Shown here: one piece after another, positions 37,936 to 45,530 of the stretch
Layout: each line of letters starts with the position of its first letter
How positions within the stretch are numbered: the stretch's first letter is position 1
NCBI GenBank assembly: GCA_913057205.1
Contig: CAJXNO010000001.1
Coordinates: 124,001-188,000 of the forward strand
DNA length: 64,000 nt
Reading direction: 5' to 3'
Source: an uncultured Flavobacteriales bacterium
GTDB taxonomy: Bacteria; Bacteroidota; Bacteroidia; Flavobacteriales_G; Salibacteraceae
Program-made: the position numbers and the translations under genes
Notes under the pieces: generated by a model
What the model saw: the letters and a program-made list of their open reading frames with translations, nothing else
The model's database searches: none
What the model was told of the DNA's origin: nothing

Positions 37936-40287
37936 ATGCACAAAAAGCTACGCTATTTTGCGGCACTTGCCGTGTTTTCTATTTCCCTACAACCCCTATT
38001 GGCGCAGCATTATTGCGGACAAGCAGTTGTCGAGAATGCGCTTCGCGCAAGCAATCCAGAACTGGCTTTTCAGGCGGATATCCTCGATTCAATCCTTACG
38101 CTTGAGGCCCAGAATATGCCGGAAGGTCAGCGTGAAGACAAGCGCATCATTCCGGTGGTGTTTCACATCATTCACCAGAACGGAGATGAGAACATCAACG
38201 ATGACCAGATCCACTCTGCCATTCGTATCATGAATGAAGACTTCATTGCCATCAATGAAGAGTTGGAGGACGTGGTTCCCTTTTTTCAAGACCGGATTGG
38301 AAACACGAACATTGAATTGCGTTTGGCCACCATCGATCCTGATGGGAATCCTACAACCGGTATCGACCGCATTGAATCTGCGCAGACGAATGTTGGTACA
38401 GATGCCTCGAAATTGAATCCCTGGCCGCGAAGAGATTATTACAACATCTGGGTCACCAACGTGATTGGTGTGGGTGGAGCGGCCGCTTATGCTTACCGTC
38501 CGCCATTCGTACCTTCTGCCAGCGTGGATGGTGTTATTTCTAACCATCGATATGTAGGAAATATCGGAACCGCTTTTGCCAGCGGTGTGAAGACCTTGAC
38601 CCATGAGACGGCGCACTTCCTGAACATCTTGCATACCTGGGGTGGATCGAATACGCCCGGACTTACAGGGAATTGTTCGATTGACGATTTTGTGGGTGAC
38701 ACACCGAATTGCATCGGAACGGGTAACAGCAGCTGTGACCTAGATGGCAATACATGTGGATCGCTTGACAATGTTCAGAATTTCATGGATTACTCTTCGT
38801 GCGAGTCCATGTTTACGCAAGGACAAGTAAACCGAATGCGTGCAGCGTTGAATTCAAGCACTGCGCAACGCAACCAATTGTGGCAAGATGACAACCTGGA
38901 ACAAACGGGTACTTCTGGCTTACACGAAGCTCGATACTACGTGGAGCGCACGGCTGTTTGCCGAGGCCAGGAAGTGCAGTTCTTTGACGAGTCGCGTTAC
39001 GATGCCAGCTCGTGGGATTGGGAGATCAGTGGACCTTCGACCTACACCTCGGACGAGCAGAACCCGGTTTTCACCTTTAACCATGCCGGAAGCTATACGG
39101 TGAAACTGACCGTGAGTAATGGAACAGAAACCGTGAGTATTGAAGATGAAATGGCCTTCACCGTGAGTAATGTCTACGGCGCAGGGATGCCATTCGAAGA
39201 GGATTTTCAAGATCCTAAACCCGGTTGGGCGATCGATATGAACGAGCGCTACGATGAGTATACTTGGGAATTGACCGATGTTGGCTACAATGACGATGCG
39301 AGCTTCAAGTTCAACAACATCGGAAATGACACGCGTAATAACCGTGACCTGGTTTTTGCAGGTTTGGACTTCAGAGGGATGACCGATGTTGACCTTGACT
39401 TTAGGGTGGCTTATGCACAATTCAGTCCGACCAATTCAGATGAGCTACGCGTGGAGTTTTCAGACGATTGTGGTGCTTCTTGGCGTACGATCGAAATTTT
39501 GAATTCGACCCAGATGAATGCGGGCAAGGATTTGACTTCATCTTCTTACGTGCCAGAGAGCAGTTCAGACTGGGAACGATTTTCCGTAAATAATATCCCC
39601 CTGACATGGTTGAACGAGCAAACCATGATTCGCTTCAAGTTCATACCTGGAGGCGGAAACAATGCCTACATCGATGACATCAACATCGATGGCTCTTATG
39701 AAGCAGTTCCTTATTTGGTTTACCCGGATAATGGCGCTCCCAGCATGAACAGTGATGTGGTGTTGGATTGGCGTTCGGTGCCAGGCGTGAGCTCCTACGA
39801 GCTGGAGGTGAGTACAACCTCTGACTTTACCAATGTGGTGGAGTCGGTCACCATAAATGCTACAGGTGATGCTTCTGACGCGGAAGACACCCAACATAAG
39901 GCCACGGCCTTAGAGAACGGACAGAAATACTACTGGAGGGTGCGTGCCAACGATGGCGGAACCTTAAGTGACTGGAGCGATGAATGGGTCTTCACAGTAG
40001 CCGAAGACGGCGTAGGTATGGAGGAGGCAGGAGCATCAAATGAACTGCTCGTTTACCCCAATCCAGCACAAGACATGTTGAACATTAAACTACCACAGCT
40101 TGTTTCGGATGCCCAGGTGGCGGTGATCAATGTGAATGGACAACTTGCCATTCAACGCCCGATCTCGTCTACTAATGAGCCAACTGAACAGCAAGTTGAC
40201 CTCAACCACCTACCCAACGGCGTGTATTTCGTCAAAGTTGAGTCTAACGAACAAATGTGGTTCAAGCGATTTGTAATCAATCGCTGA
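37936..40287 (+). CDS. Secreted M43 (pappalysin-like) metalloprotease, T9SS cargo 1
   Basis: This 783-residue protein has a signal peptide ending QPLLAQ and an M43 catalytic domain at about 50-330. The zinc motif is H223-E-T-A-H227 ... H233 (LTHETAHFLNILHTWG), and the Met-turn is FMDYSSC. Then come a PKD-like domain near 345-420 (NPVFTFNHAGSYTVKLTVSNG), a MAM-like choice-of-anchor domain near 430-590 (AYIDDINIDGS) and an Fn3-like domain near 595-690. A T9SS type A sorting domain ends the protein (LLVYPNPAQDMLNIK; FVKVESNEQMWFKRFVINR). It would be secreted and degrade external protein. The motif residue A in HETAH is less common than G. Confidence 0.92.
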   Translation: MHKKLRYFAALAVFSISLQPLLAQHYCGQAVVENALRASNPELAFQADILDSILTLEAQNMPEGQREDKRIIPVVFHIIHQNGDENINDDQIHSAIRIMNEDFIAINEELEDVVPFFQDRIGNTNIELRLATIDPDGNPTTGIDRIESAQTNVGTDASKLNPWPRRDYYNIWVTNVIGVGGAAAYAYRPPFVPSASVDGVISNHRYVGNIGTAFASGVKTLTHETAHFLNILHTWGGSNTPGLTGNCSIDDFVGDTPNCIGTGNSSCDLDGNTCGSLDNVQNFMDYSSCESMFTQGQVNRMRAALNSSTAQRNQLWQDDNLEQTGTSGLHEARYYVERTAVCRGQEVQFFDESRYDASSWDWEISGPSTYTSDEQNPVFTFNHAGSYTVKLTVSNGTETVSIEDEMAFTVSNVYGAGMPFEEDFQDPKPGWAIDMNERYDEYTWELTDVGYNDDASFKFNNIGNDTRNNRDLVFAGLDFRGMTDVDLDFRVAYAQFSPTNSDELRVEFSDDCGASWRTIEILNSTQMNAGKDLTSSSYVPESSSDWERFSVNNIPLTWLNEQTMIRFKFIPGGGNNAYIDDINIDGSYEAVPYLVYPDNGAPSMNSDVVLDWRSVPGVSSYELEVSTTSDFTNVVESVTINATGDASDAEDTQHKATALENGQKYYWRVRANDGGTLSDWSDEWVFTVAEDGVGMEEAGASNELLVYPNPAQDMLNIKLPQLVSDAQVAVINVNGQLAIQRPISSTNEPTEQQVDLNHLPNGVYFVKVESNEQMWFKRFVINR

Positions 40288-40307
40288 TCCCTGAAGGATA
40301 AAAGCAT

Positions 40308-42680
40308 ATGAAGAAGATCTTATCGATGGCTTTCGCGGGCCTTATCGCGTTCAGTACCAATGCCCAAGACCGTGGCAATTGGTGTGGATCAGATGCGCAC
40401 TTACAAGAACTCTTGGATGCGGATCCAGCACAACGTGCCTATTTCGAGCAGAAGTTAGAAGAACAGATCGCGCGGACGGCCAGCGTTCAACGGAACGGGG
40501 AAACGGTCATTCTACCAACTGTTGTACATGTCTTGTATGCAGACTGCGATGCGAGCATCAGTGCTGCGCAAGTGAAGGATGGGATTCGCGTTTTGAACGA
40601 GGACATGATGCGTTTGAATGGAGATACTTCGGAAACCCGAGCTATTTTTAAGCCGCATGCTGCGGCAACGCCCATTGAATTTCGACTGGCCCAGATCGAT
40701 CCGGATGGTAATCCTACCAATGGGATCACACGTACGTTGACCAATGCAGCCTTGAGTGCAGGGCAAAACGTGAAGAGCATCATCAATTGGCCTGCTAACG
40801 AGTATTTCAACATTTGGGTGGTGGAGAACATCGCAGGTGGCGGTGGAGGGACTATCCTTGGCTATGCACAGTTTCCAGGCAGTGGGAGCTGGGGAACCTA
40901 TGGTATTGTAATCCGTGATGATATGTTCGGAACCATCGGTACGGCAACGGCTGACGGTCGAACATTGACCCATGAGGTAGGTCATTGCTTGAATCTCTTC
41001 CATACATTCCAGAGTGGATGCGGTGGAAACTGTAACACTTCTGGAGATCGCATTTGCGATACGCCTCCGGTAGTTACCTCATCTTGGGCTTGTGACTTTG
41101 GCATGAATACATGTGCGAATGATGCTTCAGGCAGCAATGCGTTTAACAGTAACGTAGTAGACCAGATCGAAAACTACATGAGCTATAACGACTGCCAGAA
41201 CATGTTCACCAATGATCAGGCAGACCGTATGTTGGCGGTATTCAATACGCACACCGTATTGAATGAATTGGTGAGTGAAGAGAATTTAATCAATACAGGT
41301 GTGGGCGGCTTTCTTGCGGCAGATTTTGATCCGGAGCTCGACGTCGTAGTGGCGGATCGTCCAAGCACCTTTATTGACCTTACCCGCTATGAAGCGGAAG
41401 AATGGTCGTGGGATTTCGGTGCAAGCTCTTTTCCTCCTACATCAACCGATCAGAATCCAAGTGTGGCGATGATCGAGACGGGTATCCGCTCGATCACTTT
41501 GGATGTGAGTCGCGGTGGTGAAGACTTGAGCGTCACCAAGAACGTTTTGGTATGCAGCCAAGAGGGTCAATCGATTCCGTTCAGCGAAGACTTTGAGTCA
41601 GCCGGTAGCTTCCCAACCTTGTCTTGGATCACCAAGAACAACGATGCGGATGAGCATGGATTCGTAGTGACCAACCTTGCGGCCTACAGTGGTGAGCAGA
41701 GCATCATGATCGAGAATGAAGGAAAATGCGAGGCATACACGGATGAACTGATTTCTCAAACGATGGATTTCTCGCCCTTCAGTGAGGTAGAACTGACCTT
41801 CAAGGCAGCCTTTGCACGGCGCGATATCAACAGCACCGATTTCATGCGGGTGTATGTGAGTCGCGACTACGGTGAGTCTTGGCAGTTGGCAGGATTGAAA
41901 GGATCCACCAGCTTGGAGTCTGTCTCTGGCTTCAAGAATGGTTCGTGGGTGCCGGCCTCTCAGGACGAATGGAAGGAGCATAGCTTCGCCATTTTTCAAA
42001 GCAACCTAATGCGAGAAGGAATCTTAGTCAAGATCGAGTTTACCGCGGAGGGCGGAAACAACCTCTTCATTGACGACATCGCTTTCAACGGAGACTTTAC
42101 AGGTGAGCTGCTGCTGAAGAGTCCGAAGGACGAAACCTACGGGCTGAAGAAAGACGTTTTATTGGATTGGAAAGCCGTAGGCGCTGCGCAATCCTATGAG
42201 TATCAATTGGATCAGGTGACCAGCTTTGACTCTGAAGCCTTGATCATGGGTACCACCACCTTCATCAACAGCTCTGCTGACAATGAGGATACCGAGGCAT
42301 TTGTGGAAGACCTTGAATTGAATACGGTTTATTTCTGGCGCGTTCGTTACCAGCGCAACAACGGCGATTGGTCAGATTGGAGTGAAACTTGGGCTTTTCA
42401 AGTGAGTGCAGATGGCTTGAGCACGGGGGATGACCCAGTAGCGTCTGATTGGAAAGCATACCCCAATCCAGCTGATGATCGCATCACCATCGCATCAAAT
42501 GCAGCCAGCTTGCAAAATGTGAGCGTTTATGATATCAGCGGACGTATGGTTCAGCAGGTGGATAACATCCATGCGAACACCTTCAACTTAGATGTTCAAG
42601 GACTGGATGCAGGGATGTACTTCTTGCAACTAACAGACAATAAAGGTCCGCAGAAAGCTATTCCGGTGATGGTGCGCTAG
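40308..42680 (+). CDS. Secreted M43 (pappalysin-like) metalloprotease, T9SS cargo 2
   Basis: This 790-residue paralog of the preceding gene starts 20 bases after it. The zinc motif is H222-E-V-G-H226 ... H232 (LTHEVGHCLNLFHTF), followed by a Cys-rich loop (CGGNCNTSGDRICDTPP) and the Met-turn NYMSYNDC. A PKD-like part, a MAM-like domain (FIDDIAFNGD), an Fn3-like domain and a T9SS tail (WKAYPNPADDRITIAS; GMYFLQLTDNKGPQKAI) follow in the same order. The two genes are probably one transcription unit from a local duplication. The 3' end overlaps the convergent EamA gene by 23 bases. Confidence 0.92.
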   Translation: MKKILSMAFAGLIAFSTNAQDRGNWCGSDAHLQELLDADPAQRAYFEQKLEEQIARTASVQRNGETVILPTVVHVLYADCDASISAAQVKDGIRVLNEDMMRLNGDTSETRAIFKPHAAATPIEFRLAQIDPDGNPTNGITRTLTNAALSAGQNVKSIINWPANEYFNIWVVENIAGGGGGTILGYAQFPGSGSWGTYGIVIRDDMFGTIGTATADGRTLTHEVGHCLNLFHTFQSGCGGNCNTSGDRICDTPPVVTSSWACDFGMNTCANDASGSNAFNSNVVDQIENYMSYNDCQNMFTNDQADRMLAVFNTHTVLNELVSEENLINTGVGGFLAADFDPELDVVVADRPSTFIDLTRYEAEEWSWDFGASSFPPTSTDQNPSVAMIETGIRSITLDVSRGGEDLSVTKNVLVCSQEGQSIPFSEDFESAGSFPTLSWITKNNDADEHGFVVTNLAAYSGEQSIMIENEGKCEAYTDELISQTMDFSPFSEVELTFKAAFARRDINSTDFMRVYVSRDYGESWQLAGLKGSTSLESVSGFKNGSWVPASQDEWKEHSFAIFQSNLMREGILVKIEFTAEGGNNLFIDDIAFNGDFTGELLLKSPKDETYGLKKDVLLDWKAVGAAQSYEYQLDQVTSFDSEALIMGTTTFINSSADNEDTEAFVEDLELNTVYFWRVRYQRNNGDWSDWSETWAFQVSADGLSTGDDPVASDWKAYPNPADDRITIASNAASLQNVSVYDISGRMVQQVDNIHANTFNLDVQGLDAGMYFLQLTDNKGPQKAIPVMVR

Positions 42681-43578
42681 GGCGCGACTTCCGGATACTT
42701 ACGAGATAGACTCCACTGAAGATCATCGCTGCCGAAAGGAGCTTGATCCAGTGGAGTTTTTCCATTTCTAAGGCGATGCTCAAGGTGCCGGCCAAGACCG
42801 GCTGAAGGTAGATGTAGGCGCTCACCACCGACGGACTCACCGTTTTCATGGCGTACACATTGAGGAAATAGACCAAGAAGGTCACGCAGATGATCACGTA
42901 CATCACCCCCCAGAAGATTTCGATAGGCATATTGGCCCAATCCACCTCCAATGCTTGACTGTAGCCGAAAGGAAACACCATCACACAACCAAAGGTGAAG
43001 ACCCACTTGATCACCGTCATGGGTTCATACTTGTTCATCAGCGGCTTCACGGTAACCAAGTAGATGCCGTAGCTGATGGCGTTGATGAGAATCATAGCAT
43101 CCCCCAATGGGTCGCCGGCCTTCCACTCCAGCTCACTGTAACCCAAGAGCACCGGCAGGAGGATGAGCATCAAAGAACCCGCCAGCCCAAGCCCGATGCC
43201 CGCTACCTTGAAAACGGTTATACGTTCTTTCAAGATCACCGCAGCAGCCAGCAATACCAGCACCGGATTGCTGGTCATGATGACGCTTGCATTGAGCGGC
43301 GATGTAATGTTCAATCCATTGAAGAAGAAGAGCTGATTCAGGGCTACGCCGAACAGCGCTGCTTGGATAAAGCGCGGATAGTCTTCACGAGCGATCTTCT
43401 CCTTGGAAATGAAGCGGTGTACAATCCAGAACAGCGCCGTAGCTCCGAACACCCTGTAGAAGATGAATCCTGACGGACCGATGTATTCTGGCATGATGCC
43501 TTTGGCCACGATATAGTTGACGGCGTAGAATACACCAACGATGAACAGGACAATATGCGCTCGAGCAACGTTACTCAT
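42658..43578 (-). CDS. EamA/DMT family transporter
   Basis: This 306-residue protein has ten hydrophobic helices in two EamA repeats. Family marks are YAVNYIVAKGIMPEYIGPSG with FYRVFGATALFW in the first repeat, TSPLNASVIMTSNPVLVLL, and AYIYLQPVLAGTLSIALEME in the second. Such carriers export amino acids or other metabolites; the substrate is not predictable. It overlaps the upstream ArsC/Spx-like gene by eight bases, so the two are co-transcribed. Confidence 0.9.
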   Translation of the reverse strand: MSNVARAHIVLFIVGVFYAVNYIVAKGIMPEYIGPSGFIFYRVFGATALFWIVHRFISKEKIAREDYPRFIQAALFGVALNQLFFFNGLNITSPLNASVIMTSNPVLVLLAAAVILKERITVFKVAGIGLGLAGSLMLILLPVLLGYSELEWKAGDPLGDAMILINAISYGIYLVTVKPLMNKYEPMTVIKWVFTFGCVMVFPFGYSQALEVDWANMPIEIFWGVMYVIICVTFLVYFLNVYAMKTVSPSVVSAYIYLQPVLAGTLSIALEMEKLHWIKLLSAAMIFSGVYLVSIRKSRPSAPSPE

Positions 43579-43921
43579 TGAGGCGTGCTTGAATGGCTTC
43601 TACGATCTTCTTGCTGTTGCCTACAAAAACATCCTCACCGATGATGTAGACCGGTCGCTTCAAGAAGGTGTACTCGTTCAAGATCAACTTGCGCCAAGCG
43701 GGCTCTTCTAGTTTTTGCTGGTTCAATCCATCCGCACGGAACTTCTGCGCCCGCTTGTTGAACAGGGCCTCATAGCTGCCTTCCTTCTCGGCCAGCATAT
43801 CCAAGGTAACTGCATCGATGTGCTGTTTTTTGATGTCTTGCAGTTCAAAGCCATCCGTGCCCGTTTCATGCATGATGCGTTTACACGTATCGCAGGTGCT
43901 GAGGTAGAAGATCTTTTTCAT
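43571..43921 (-). CDS. ArsC/Spx family thioredoxin-fold protein
   Basis: This 116-residue protein has the ArsC/Spx fold. An N-terminal CDTC motif (FYLSTCDTCKRIMHE) lies near residue 10, followed by the mid segment LEEPAWRKLILNEYTFLKRPVYIIG, including the conserved L(K/R)RP turn, and GNSKKIVEA at the end. Members are glutathione-linked arsenate reductases or redox-sensing Spx-like proteins; the CxxC form alone does not decide. ATG at 43921 is used, as the 17 extra upstream residues are not family-like. Confidence 0.85.
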   Translation of the reverse strand: MKKIFYLSTCDTCKRIMHETGTDGFELQDIKKQHIDAVTLDMLAEKEGSYEALFNKRAQKFRADGLNQQKLEEPAWRKLILNEYTFLKRPVYIIGEDVFVGNSKKIVEAIQARLNE

Positions 43922-44031
43922 CGTTAGAAATTTCGTCCTCAAAGTTAGTGCTTGAAATTTGGACGAAATCACCGGGATGTGCGGCTTTGATGCACGTTTT
44001 TGATCGAAGGCACTGACATGAAGTTCCCAAA

Positions 44032-44176
44032 ATTGCGGGAGGGTTGGAGAACTCAGCGCGGACGCATTGCGGGAGGGGGTATCCAGCCGACGCGCGATGG
44101 GGCTTTGAGCGCAGGATACCGAAGGGCTCGAGTTCTCCGATTTTTTGGATACTTTTTTTTAAAAAAAAAGTATTGG
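44032..44176 (+). ncRNA. Structured intergenic element with nested stems and a terminal hairpin
   Basis: GGAGAACTC (44046-44054) pairs perfectly with GAGTTCTCC (44130-44138). Inside it, GGTATCC (44078-44084) pairs with GGATACC (44114-44120), and AGCC (44085-44088) can pair with GGCT (44101-44104). ATTGCGGGAGGG occurs twice, at 44032 and 44066. A second hairpin follows, ATAC-T8 (44149-44160) against A9-GTAT (44161-44173). The nested design indicates a folded RNA or a palindromic mobile repeat. From memory, similar G-rich elements ending in a 'TACTTTTT...AAAAAGTA' hairpin recur between genes in other Bacteroidota. This is unverified, and the strand is not certain. Confidence 0.5.
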
Positions 44177-44262
44177 ACTGAGGGCCAATTGAAGCATGAG
44201 GTTCAAATCAGAAGTTGAGTTCATAAGTCTGCCTTAGCACTTTCTTCCCTGAACGTCAACAG

Positions 44263-44282
44263 ATCCCGATAGCCATCGGGAT
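44263..44282. repeat. Short palindromic repeat-like hairpin
   Basis: ATCCCGAT-AGCC-ATCGGGAT is a perfect 8-bp stem with a 4-base loop. Very similar CCCGATAG(C)TATCGGG palindromes are, to my knowledge, frequent between genes in Bacteroidota, so this is probably a REP-like sequence or a terminator remnant. No T-tract follows. Confidence 0.45.
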
Positions 44283-44429
44283 GTGGGTTTCTTATTCACA
44301 GCTAGGTGTACGGATTGTACCTCCGCGCGATCATTTAATGCACTTCAAGCTCGAAGCAGAATGCAACAAAATTTGCCATAATCGAATCACGCTTCGCTTG
44401 CTTCTAAAGGTTTTCTTTGTAGCCCTAGC

Positions 44430-45530
44430 ATGGCGAGAAAAAGCAATCCCATACGTCAACTGCTCAGTCCCGGTAAGATCTTTATCCCCATCGGTATCGG
44501 CCTGGCGATCGTGGCCTATTTCCTTATTCGTGACTTCAATGCGCAAAAGGAGGCGTTGAGCATGATCAATTGGACGTGGTCGTCTACCTTGTGGTTTGGT
44601 GTTGCCTTGCTTATGGTGGCCTTGCGCGATGTGGGCTACATGATCCGCATACGCATCCTTACCGATAAACAACTCAACTGGCGACAAGCCTTTGATGTGA
44701 TCATGTTGTGGGAGTTTGCATCGTCTGTTACACCGAGCATCGTGGGCGGGTCCAGCATTGCGATCTTCATCGTGAACCGGGAGAAGATACCCCTCGGGCG
44801 GAGTACGGCCGTGGTGATGATCACCGCCTTCTTAGACGAACTGTTCTACGTGTTGATGGTGCCGCTGCTGCTGATCATCGTGGGATGGAGTGAGCTGTTC
44901 CCCGTAGCCTTGCAAAAGGAATTCTTTGGTGTAACCCTGGGTGCGCGTGAGATCTTTGTGGCGGGTTACGTCTTCATCCTCATCCTGATCACCCTGATCT
45001 GGCTCGGCATCTTCCGCTATCCTAAAGCAGCTAAGCGCTTATTGATATCCGTTTTCTCGATCCGCTTTTTGAAGCGCTGGCGGCGAGGTGCTATCGAAAC
45101 GGGGAATGATCTGATCATTACAAGTGCAGAGCTCAAAGAGAAGCCATTCAGCTTCTGGGCGAAGGCATTCGTGGCGACGTTCTTATCCTGGACTGCTCGG
45201 TTCTGGGTGGTGAATTTCTTGATCCTCTCGTTTACCTTGGTAGACATCAGCCTGCTCGATCACTTCATGATCTACGCCCGGCAATTGGTGATGTGGGTGA
45301 TCCTCTTGATCTCTCCGACTCCTGGCGGAAGTGGAGTAGCAGAGGTGGCGTTCAGCGGCTTCTTGCAGCAGTTCATCTCACCTGTAGGGTTGGCCATTTC
45401 CATCGGGGTGATTTGGCGGATCATCAGTTACTACCCCTACTTGTTGATGGGTGCCATCATCCTACCACGTTGGATCCAACGGGTTTATTTGGGCCGACGC
45501 TTGATCAAATTCAAGGTGCCAGAGCAATAG
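44430..45530 (+). CDS. Flippase-like membrane protein (LPG synthase TM-region/UPF0104 family)
   Basis: This 366-residue membrane protein has about eight helices. It carries LRDVGYMIRIRILTDKQLNW near residue 65, WEFASSVTPSIVGGSSIAIF near 90 and LLISPTPGGSGVAEVAFSGF near 290. The TPS.(V/G)GG and SPTPGG(S/A)G.AE motifs define the flippase-like domain found in MprF and AglD. No soluble LPG-synthase domain is present, so it may move lipids or lipid-linked sugars, in line with the GT genes in the window. Function is inferred from the family. Confidence 0.85.
   Translation: MARKSNPIRQLLSPGKIFIPIGIGLAIVAYFLIRDFNAQKEALSMINWTWSSTLWFGVALLMVALRDVGYMIRIRILTDKQLNWRQAFDVIMLWEFASSVTPSIVGGSSIAIFIVNREKIPLGRSTAVVMITAFLDELFYVLMVPLLLIIVGWSELFPVALQKEFFGVTLGAREIFVAGYVFILILITLIWLGIFRYPKAAKRLLISVFSIRFLKRWRRGAIETGNDLIITSAELKEKPFSFWAKAFVATFLSWTARFWVVNFLILSFTLVDISLLDHFMIYARQLVMWVILLISPTPGGSGVAEVAFSGFLQQFISPVGLAISIGVIWRIISYYPYLLMGAIILPRWIQRVYLGRRLIKFKVPEQ

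Follow-up and report, generated by a model that had tools for sequence, protein, structure and literature searches.

REPs are palindromic units of 20-40 bp that can be joined head to head, as REPIN dimers, into one long hairpin; the RAYT (Y1) gene that accompanies them is itself flanked by the repeats. The REP tag is a tetranucleotide, GTAG or CGTC, at the base of the stem (PMC3733652). The block at positions 44032-44176 of the window (the whole 64-kb stretch, from the genome G000 of an uncultured member of the Flavobacteriales, that was analysed) has much in common with the REP/REPIN system and its RAYT (TnpA-REP): it is intergenic, palindromic, dispersed and gene-less, its relatives have been amplified in particular lineages, and in several other lineages they occur as head-to-head dimers. 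It differs in being several times longer, in combining a nested double stem with a separate T/A hairpin, and in having neither the tag nor a linked Y1 gene. With the MITE-like repeats (ERIC, BOX, RUP, Correia/NEMIS), whose mobiliser is often unknown, it shares a short, non-autonomous, intergenic and self-folding character, but its ends, instead of being simple terminal inverted repeats, are formed by a GC stem with a T-tract after it and a T/A hairpin, and its sequence diverges almost completely between genomes while its architecture stays. With intrinsic (rho-independent) terminators it shares a GC stem with a T-run directly after; the long loop enclosing a second stem, the conserved downstream T/A hairpin and the dispersed, multicopy occurrence set it apart. 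Like the Flavo-1 RNA (Rfam RF01705) and other Rfam RNAs, it is structured and found in Bacteroidota, but it matches no Rfam model itself. (A Flavo-1 RNA, at 57.5 bits, lies at L216:1304-1383 in genome G107, and a copy of the element is situated about 140 bp away on the opposite strand.) The block is, in our view, probably a copy of a mobile palindromic DNA element that is non-autonomous, behaves like a REPIN or MITE and is not a REP.

All parts of the element are given here on the plus strand. The nested inverted repeats that a sequence-only reading had picked out, 9 bp around 7 bp, are present. The outer stem pairs GGAGAACTC (44046-44054) with GAGTTCTCC (44130-44138), arms that are defined by the inverted repeat, by the fold and by the conservation of pairing among copies; the inner stem pairs GGTATCC (44078-44084) with GGATACC (44114-44120), for which most sister copies have GGTGTTT and AAACACC. 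The 12-base word said to occur twice, 34 bases apart, is ATTGCGGGAGGG, starting at 44032 and at 44066. It is a G-rich GCGGG motif placed once before the outer stem (box 1, 44032-44043, with GCGGG conserved) and once inside the outer-stem loop (box 2, 44066-44077). Immediately 3' of the outer stem is a terminator-like GATTTTTT tract (44139-44146) that is conserved family-wide, and the closing T/A hairpin (44149-44173, with ATACTTTTTTTT at 44149-44160 and AAAAAAAAGTAT at 44162-44173) is, as had been described, the structure at the 3' end. A 5' module, CGGGATGTGCGGC...GATCGRAGG...ATGAA (43973-44031), is common to the copies of G000, and its hairpin is found a second time 3' of the element (CAGATCCCGATAGCCATCGGGATG, 44258-44285), likewise in several sister copies. 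By itself this anatomy is suggestive and only moderately improbable, because 2.3% of 1000 dinucleotide shuffles of the gap contain a 7-bp inverted repeat nested in a 9-bp one, and 0.1% contain a 12-nt direct repeat. The comparative data decide.

The gap is without a gene, as the sequence-only reading had it. A small protein was considered and rejected: no Pfam family matches the 72-aa ORF at 44000-44218, and the conserved block falls in differing frames among sister copies. A recombination site had also been proposed. Integron attC sites carry RYYYAAC and GTTRRRY boxes at the ends of their palindrome; the two outer-stem arms, on reading their sequence, contain neither box, and no evidence for a recombination site of this or a similar kind was found. 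Nor does any DNA-level match point to phage or plasmid origin.

The left neighbour of the block is an arsC-like gene (43571-43927, minus strand) and the right neighbour encodes a lysylphosphatidylglycerol-synthase-type membrane protein (44430-45530, plus strand), both assigned by reading their translations and both transcribed away from the gap. A retron ncRNA would have a reverse transcriptase gene next to it, where the two neighbours here are arsC-like and a membrane-protein gene. This arsC(-)/membrane-protein(+) synteny is retained in 13 genomes, that is, in G000 and all 12 of its congeners, but the intergenic gap measures 508 bp in G000 as against 46-120 bp in the congeners. On the left, homology with the congeners ends after GGACGAAATCAC, at about 43972, and it resumes at about 44400. 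The longer gap and the breaks in homology therefore indicate that approximately 390 bp (net) was gained in the G000 lineage, at 43973-44399 (plus strand; the right edge is approximate), and BLASTn detects no copy of the element in any of the 12 congeneric genomes. The true unit exceeds the block as first delimited, 44032-44176 being the middle of the insertion. Elsewhere in the window, at 37936-42680, two adjoining long secreted-protease-like genes of similar layout resemble a tandem duplication (judged from their translations).

The G000 genome (2.83 Mb, 99.9% complete) contains seven full copies of the element and several truncated ones; one further weak match (E = 0.002) is possibly a more distant copy. 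All seven have both the 9-bp outer stem and the T/A hairpin, a few cells being mismatched. In the inner stem, four of the seven base pairs are altered on both sides among these copies, as in the already mentioned GGTATCC/GGATACC and GGTGTTT/AAACACC. Most copies are preceded by the 5' module, with its GATCCCGAT..ATCGGGAT hairpin, and several have another one after. A GA-rich hairpin (GAGAGTGAGAGCGAAGA...CTCTCGCTCTTCGCACTCACTCTC) forms a second repeat of G000; it lies beside tRNA genes and after truncated 5' modules (L004:3060-3120 and L008:190-330).

That other Bacteroidota have similar blocks with a final TACTTTTT hairpin is borne out by two kinds of search of 395 Bacteroidia genomes. A tail pattern (CCGATTTTT, a gap, TTTTTCTAAAAA) matched 5 of the 395, and the reversed pattern, which served as control, matched none among the genomes listed. 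The loci found in this way have the same plan in other sequence: a GC-rich outer stem, GATTTTT(T) and a T/A hairpin. Because the tail pattern alone matches many ordinary terminators in AT-rich genomes, only loci with a paired outer stem or a covariance-model match were counted. The covariance model R1, built from the seven G000 copies, scores the clearest tail-pattern loci at E = 1e-8 to 3e-11. At E <= 1e-3, with approximately 0.4 expected by chance, it finds matches in at least 24 of the 395 genomes, in unrelated families and often in multiple copies. What these share is the order outer stem, GATTTTTT, T/A hairpin. At E <= 0.1, 40 of the 395 genomes have matches, but about 40 chance matches are possible at that level, and the stricter cut-off was used for that reason; per-genome copy numbers from the R1 scan are minima, since eight candidates at most were scored in each genome. 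When a second model, R2, was run on 99 kb of other Bacteroidia DNA surrounding Y1 genes, nothing scored E <= 1; its matches in the 64-kb window are the element, the same hairpin on the opposite strand and one at E = 3. A BLAST match in G064 is a true distant copy of the element. Another, in G110, lacks the stem architecture in its surroundings and seems to be a chance match.

Some lineages have amplified their own versions; unit sizes in the family are ~106, ~144 and ~247 bp. Genome G337 carries at least 38 copies of the ~106-bp unit, 86-97% identical and in unrelated flanks, with a sharp GTGCGGC start and a common 3' end, AAAGTAACANNACAA; all 27 of the copies examined sit between ORFs (by a simple ORF call). 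In the genus of G265, most of 40 genomes carry several copies of the ~247-bp version. The genes neighbouring copies vary. The discrete ends and dispersed insertion that mark MITEs are found. MITEs also share terminal inverted repeats with an autonomous transposon and produce a target duplication; an autonomous partner was not found, and G337 shows no clear target duplication, while one G087 copy is flanked by a GGAAT repeat. A G087 repeat exists in a filled form (L163) and in an empty form (L165, L166), the difference being the element plus one copy of GGAAT, and deletion between the GGAAT repeats could alternatively have generated the empty site. In G299 (L255:509-1650) three copies stand in tandem with a period of ~517 bp, each within a larger repeated unit.

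Several lineages have copies in head-to-head pairs, 20-250 bp apart, with their 5' ends facing and their T/A hairpins outward (L237, L243, L240, L073, L268, L274, L275 and L267); the L237 pair has a folding energy of -207 kcal/mol across 461 nt. Within the 64-kb window the copy described here has no such partner. The same paired layout is seen in a Sulfuricurvum MAG (L066:88-406) and in a Candidatus Peregrinibacteria MAG (L120:6633-7096), which suggests that the element class extends past Bacteroidota; since both loci were found with the tail pattern, only their paired layout and stems count as independent evidence. In subfamilies with a long T/A-hairpin loop, that loop and the outer stem's 3' end are complementary (for example TTTCAAGA with TCTTGAA, or ATCAAG with CTTGAT). 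Such complementarity, seen in L236, L238, L245, L253, L202, L204 and others, would give a mutually exclusive alternative hairpin. Its summed match is 134, where none of 2000 shuffles exceeds 123, but the aligned rows are related, and for that reason the possible alternative helix is a lead and not proof. The window copy, with its short T/A-hairpin loop, is without it.

Is the structure kept for the sake of an RNA? The copies might constitute a small non-coding RNA gene family, with a G-rich 5' region and nested stems, ending at GATTTTTT and multiplying through a regulatory role. The plus strand does fold strongly (-60.8 kcal/mol, z = -3.9 relative to shuffles), its end is terminator-like, boxes of loop sequence are conserved and covariation is strong. 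Among 102 aligned matches, 97.1% of paired cells hold standard pairs (an upper bound, because the alignment was fitted to the model), and 24 of 26 pairs are doubly changed. Sliding the partners lowers pairing to 48-53% of cells, a very large gap. Relative to its own shuffles, however, the minus strand folds equally well (-46.5 kcal/mol, z = -4.05), and G-U pairs are scarce. RNA tolerates G-U, which a DNA hairpin needing to form on either strand does not. Of the outer-stem pairs 1.9% are G-U, and of the T/A-stem pairs 2.2%, as compared with 10.4% in tRNA stems of the same DNA, a rarity of about five-fold (Fisher p about 5e-9, a value that overstates independence because the copies are related). 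Rare G-U therefore speaks for selection or repair acting on DNA, and it points to stem pairing being kept in DNA rather than for an RNA, although the copies may still have an RNA role; template-switch repair of palindromes, or strong terminator stems, could also be the source of low G-U. A sigma-70 scan, whose model does not cover Bacteroidota promoters, found no promoter-like site. Copy number ranges from 0 to at least 38 between genomes, zero (by BLASTn) being the number in the 12 congeners, and the lack of a matching Rfam model has already been referred to. The non-coding RNA that the sequence-only reading had offered is accordingly weakened, above all by the very low G-U content of the stems, and we consider it unlikely.

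Somewhat more doubtful is the proposal that these are dispersed intrinsic-terminator cassettes, in which the outer stem and T-run would end transcription of the upstream gene and be kept as an insulator of neighbouring genes. Stem and GATTTTTT-type T-tract are indeed present in nearly all copies, and in G337 the upstream gene is directed into the element in 19 of 26 cases, a mild bias (p = 0.03). In a mixed sample of genomes, by contrast, the two orientations of the upstream gene are about equally common (35 of 60, p = 0.25), both neighbours of the window copy are directed away from the gap, and a conserved inner stem and T/A hairpin are superfluous for a terminator. The earlier judgement that the block does not look like a simple terminator is correct, although an outer stem with a T-run after it does resemble an intrinsic terminator.

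Membership of a REP/REPIN family moved by RAYT is highly improbable: although Y1 transposases are present in 15 of 18 element-bearing genomes tested and the head-to-head dimers resemble REPINs, there is no Y1 gene in the 99.9%-complete G000 or in the carriers G037 and G084, and no element within about 1.5 kb of any of the 32 Y1 loci examined, so that the RAYT route is not supported; the GTAG/CGTC tag is missing as well (GGTT precedes the outer stem in the window copy and the G337 unit starts GTGCGGC), and the units measure 100-250 bp, not 20-40.

We return, then, to the mobile palindromic element. It is the best fit among the possibilities first raised, in that a REP-like mobile palindrome was proposed and dispersed copies, an insertion relative to 12 congeners and amplified subfamilies are found, with REP membership as the part that fails. 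Direct support comes from the dispersal, the lineage-specific amplification, the insertion at this locus, the sharp ends of the G337 unit and the compensatory preservation of the stems. The unit would consist of a G-rich 5' edge, a perfect outer stem around a variable inner stem, the GATTTTTT tract and the T/A-rich hairpin that marks its 3' end. Its hairpins may form in single-stranded or cruciform DNA at replication and mark the ends for an enzyme that acts in trans and would paste copies into AT-rich intergenic DNA. Insertion beside genes would be tolerated because the outer stem and T-run probably end transcription. In several lineages the head-to-head pair, T/A hairpins outward, is the probable full form, and single copies such as that in the window may be half-elements.

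No description of this family was found in Rfam or in the open PMC literature (subscription papers lay outside the search). More tentatively, the copies may represent a previously undescribed class of mobile DNA with nested-stem and T/A-hairpin ends in head-to-head arrangement; it would range over Bacteroidota, possibly reaching Campylobacterota and Candidate Phyla bacteria, and some enzyme other than a Y1 transposase would move it in trans. Outside the REPs, few families are known that combine conserved structure with near-total sequence turnover. With an explicit covariance model, at least 38 near-identical copies in one genome and copies in almost all species of one genus, palindrome mobilisation becomes directly testable. 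Repeats of this kind shape bacterial intergenic gaps and gene expression, and the family accounts for recurrent intergenic blocks in Bacteroidota genomes that are open to misreading as small genes.
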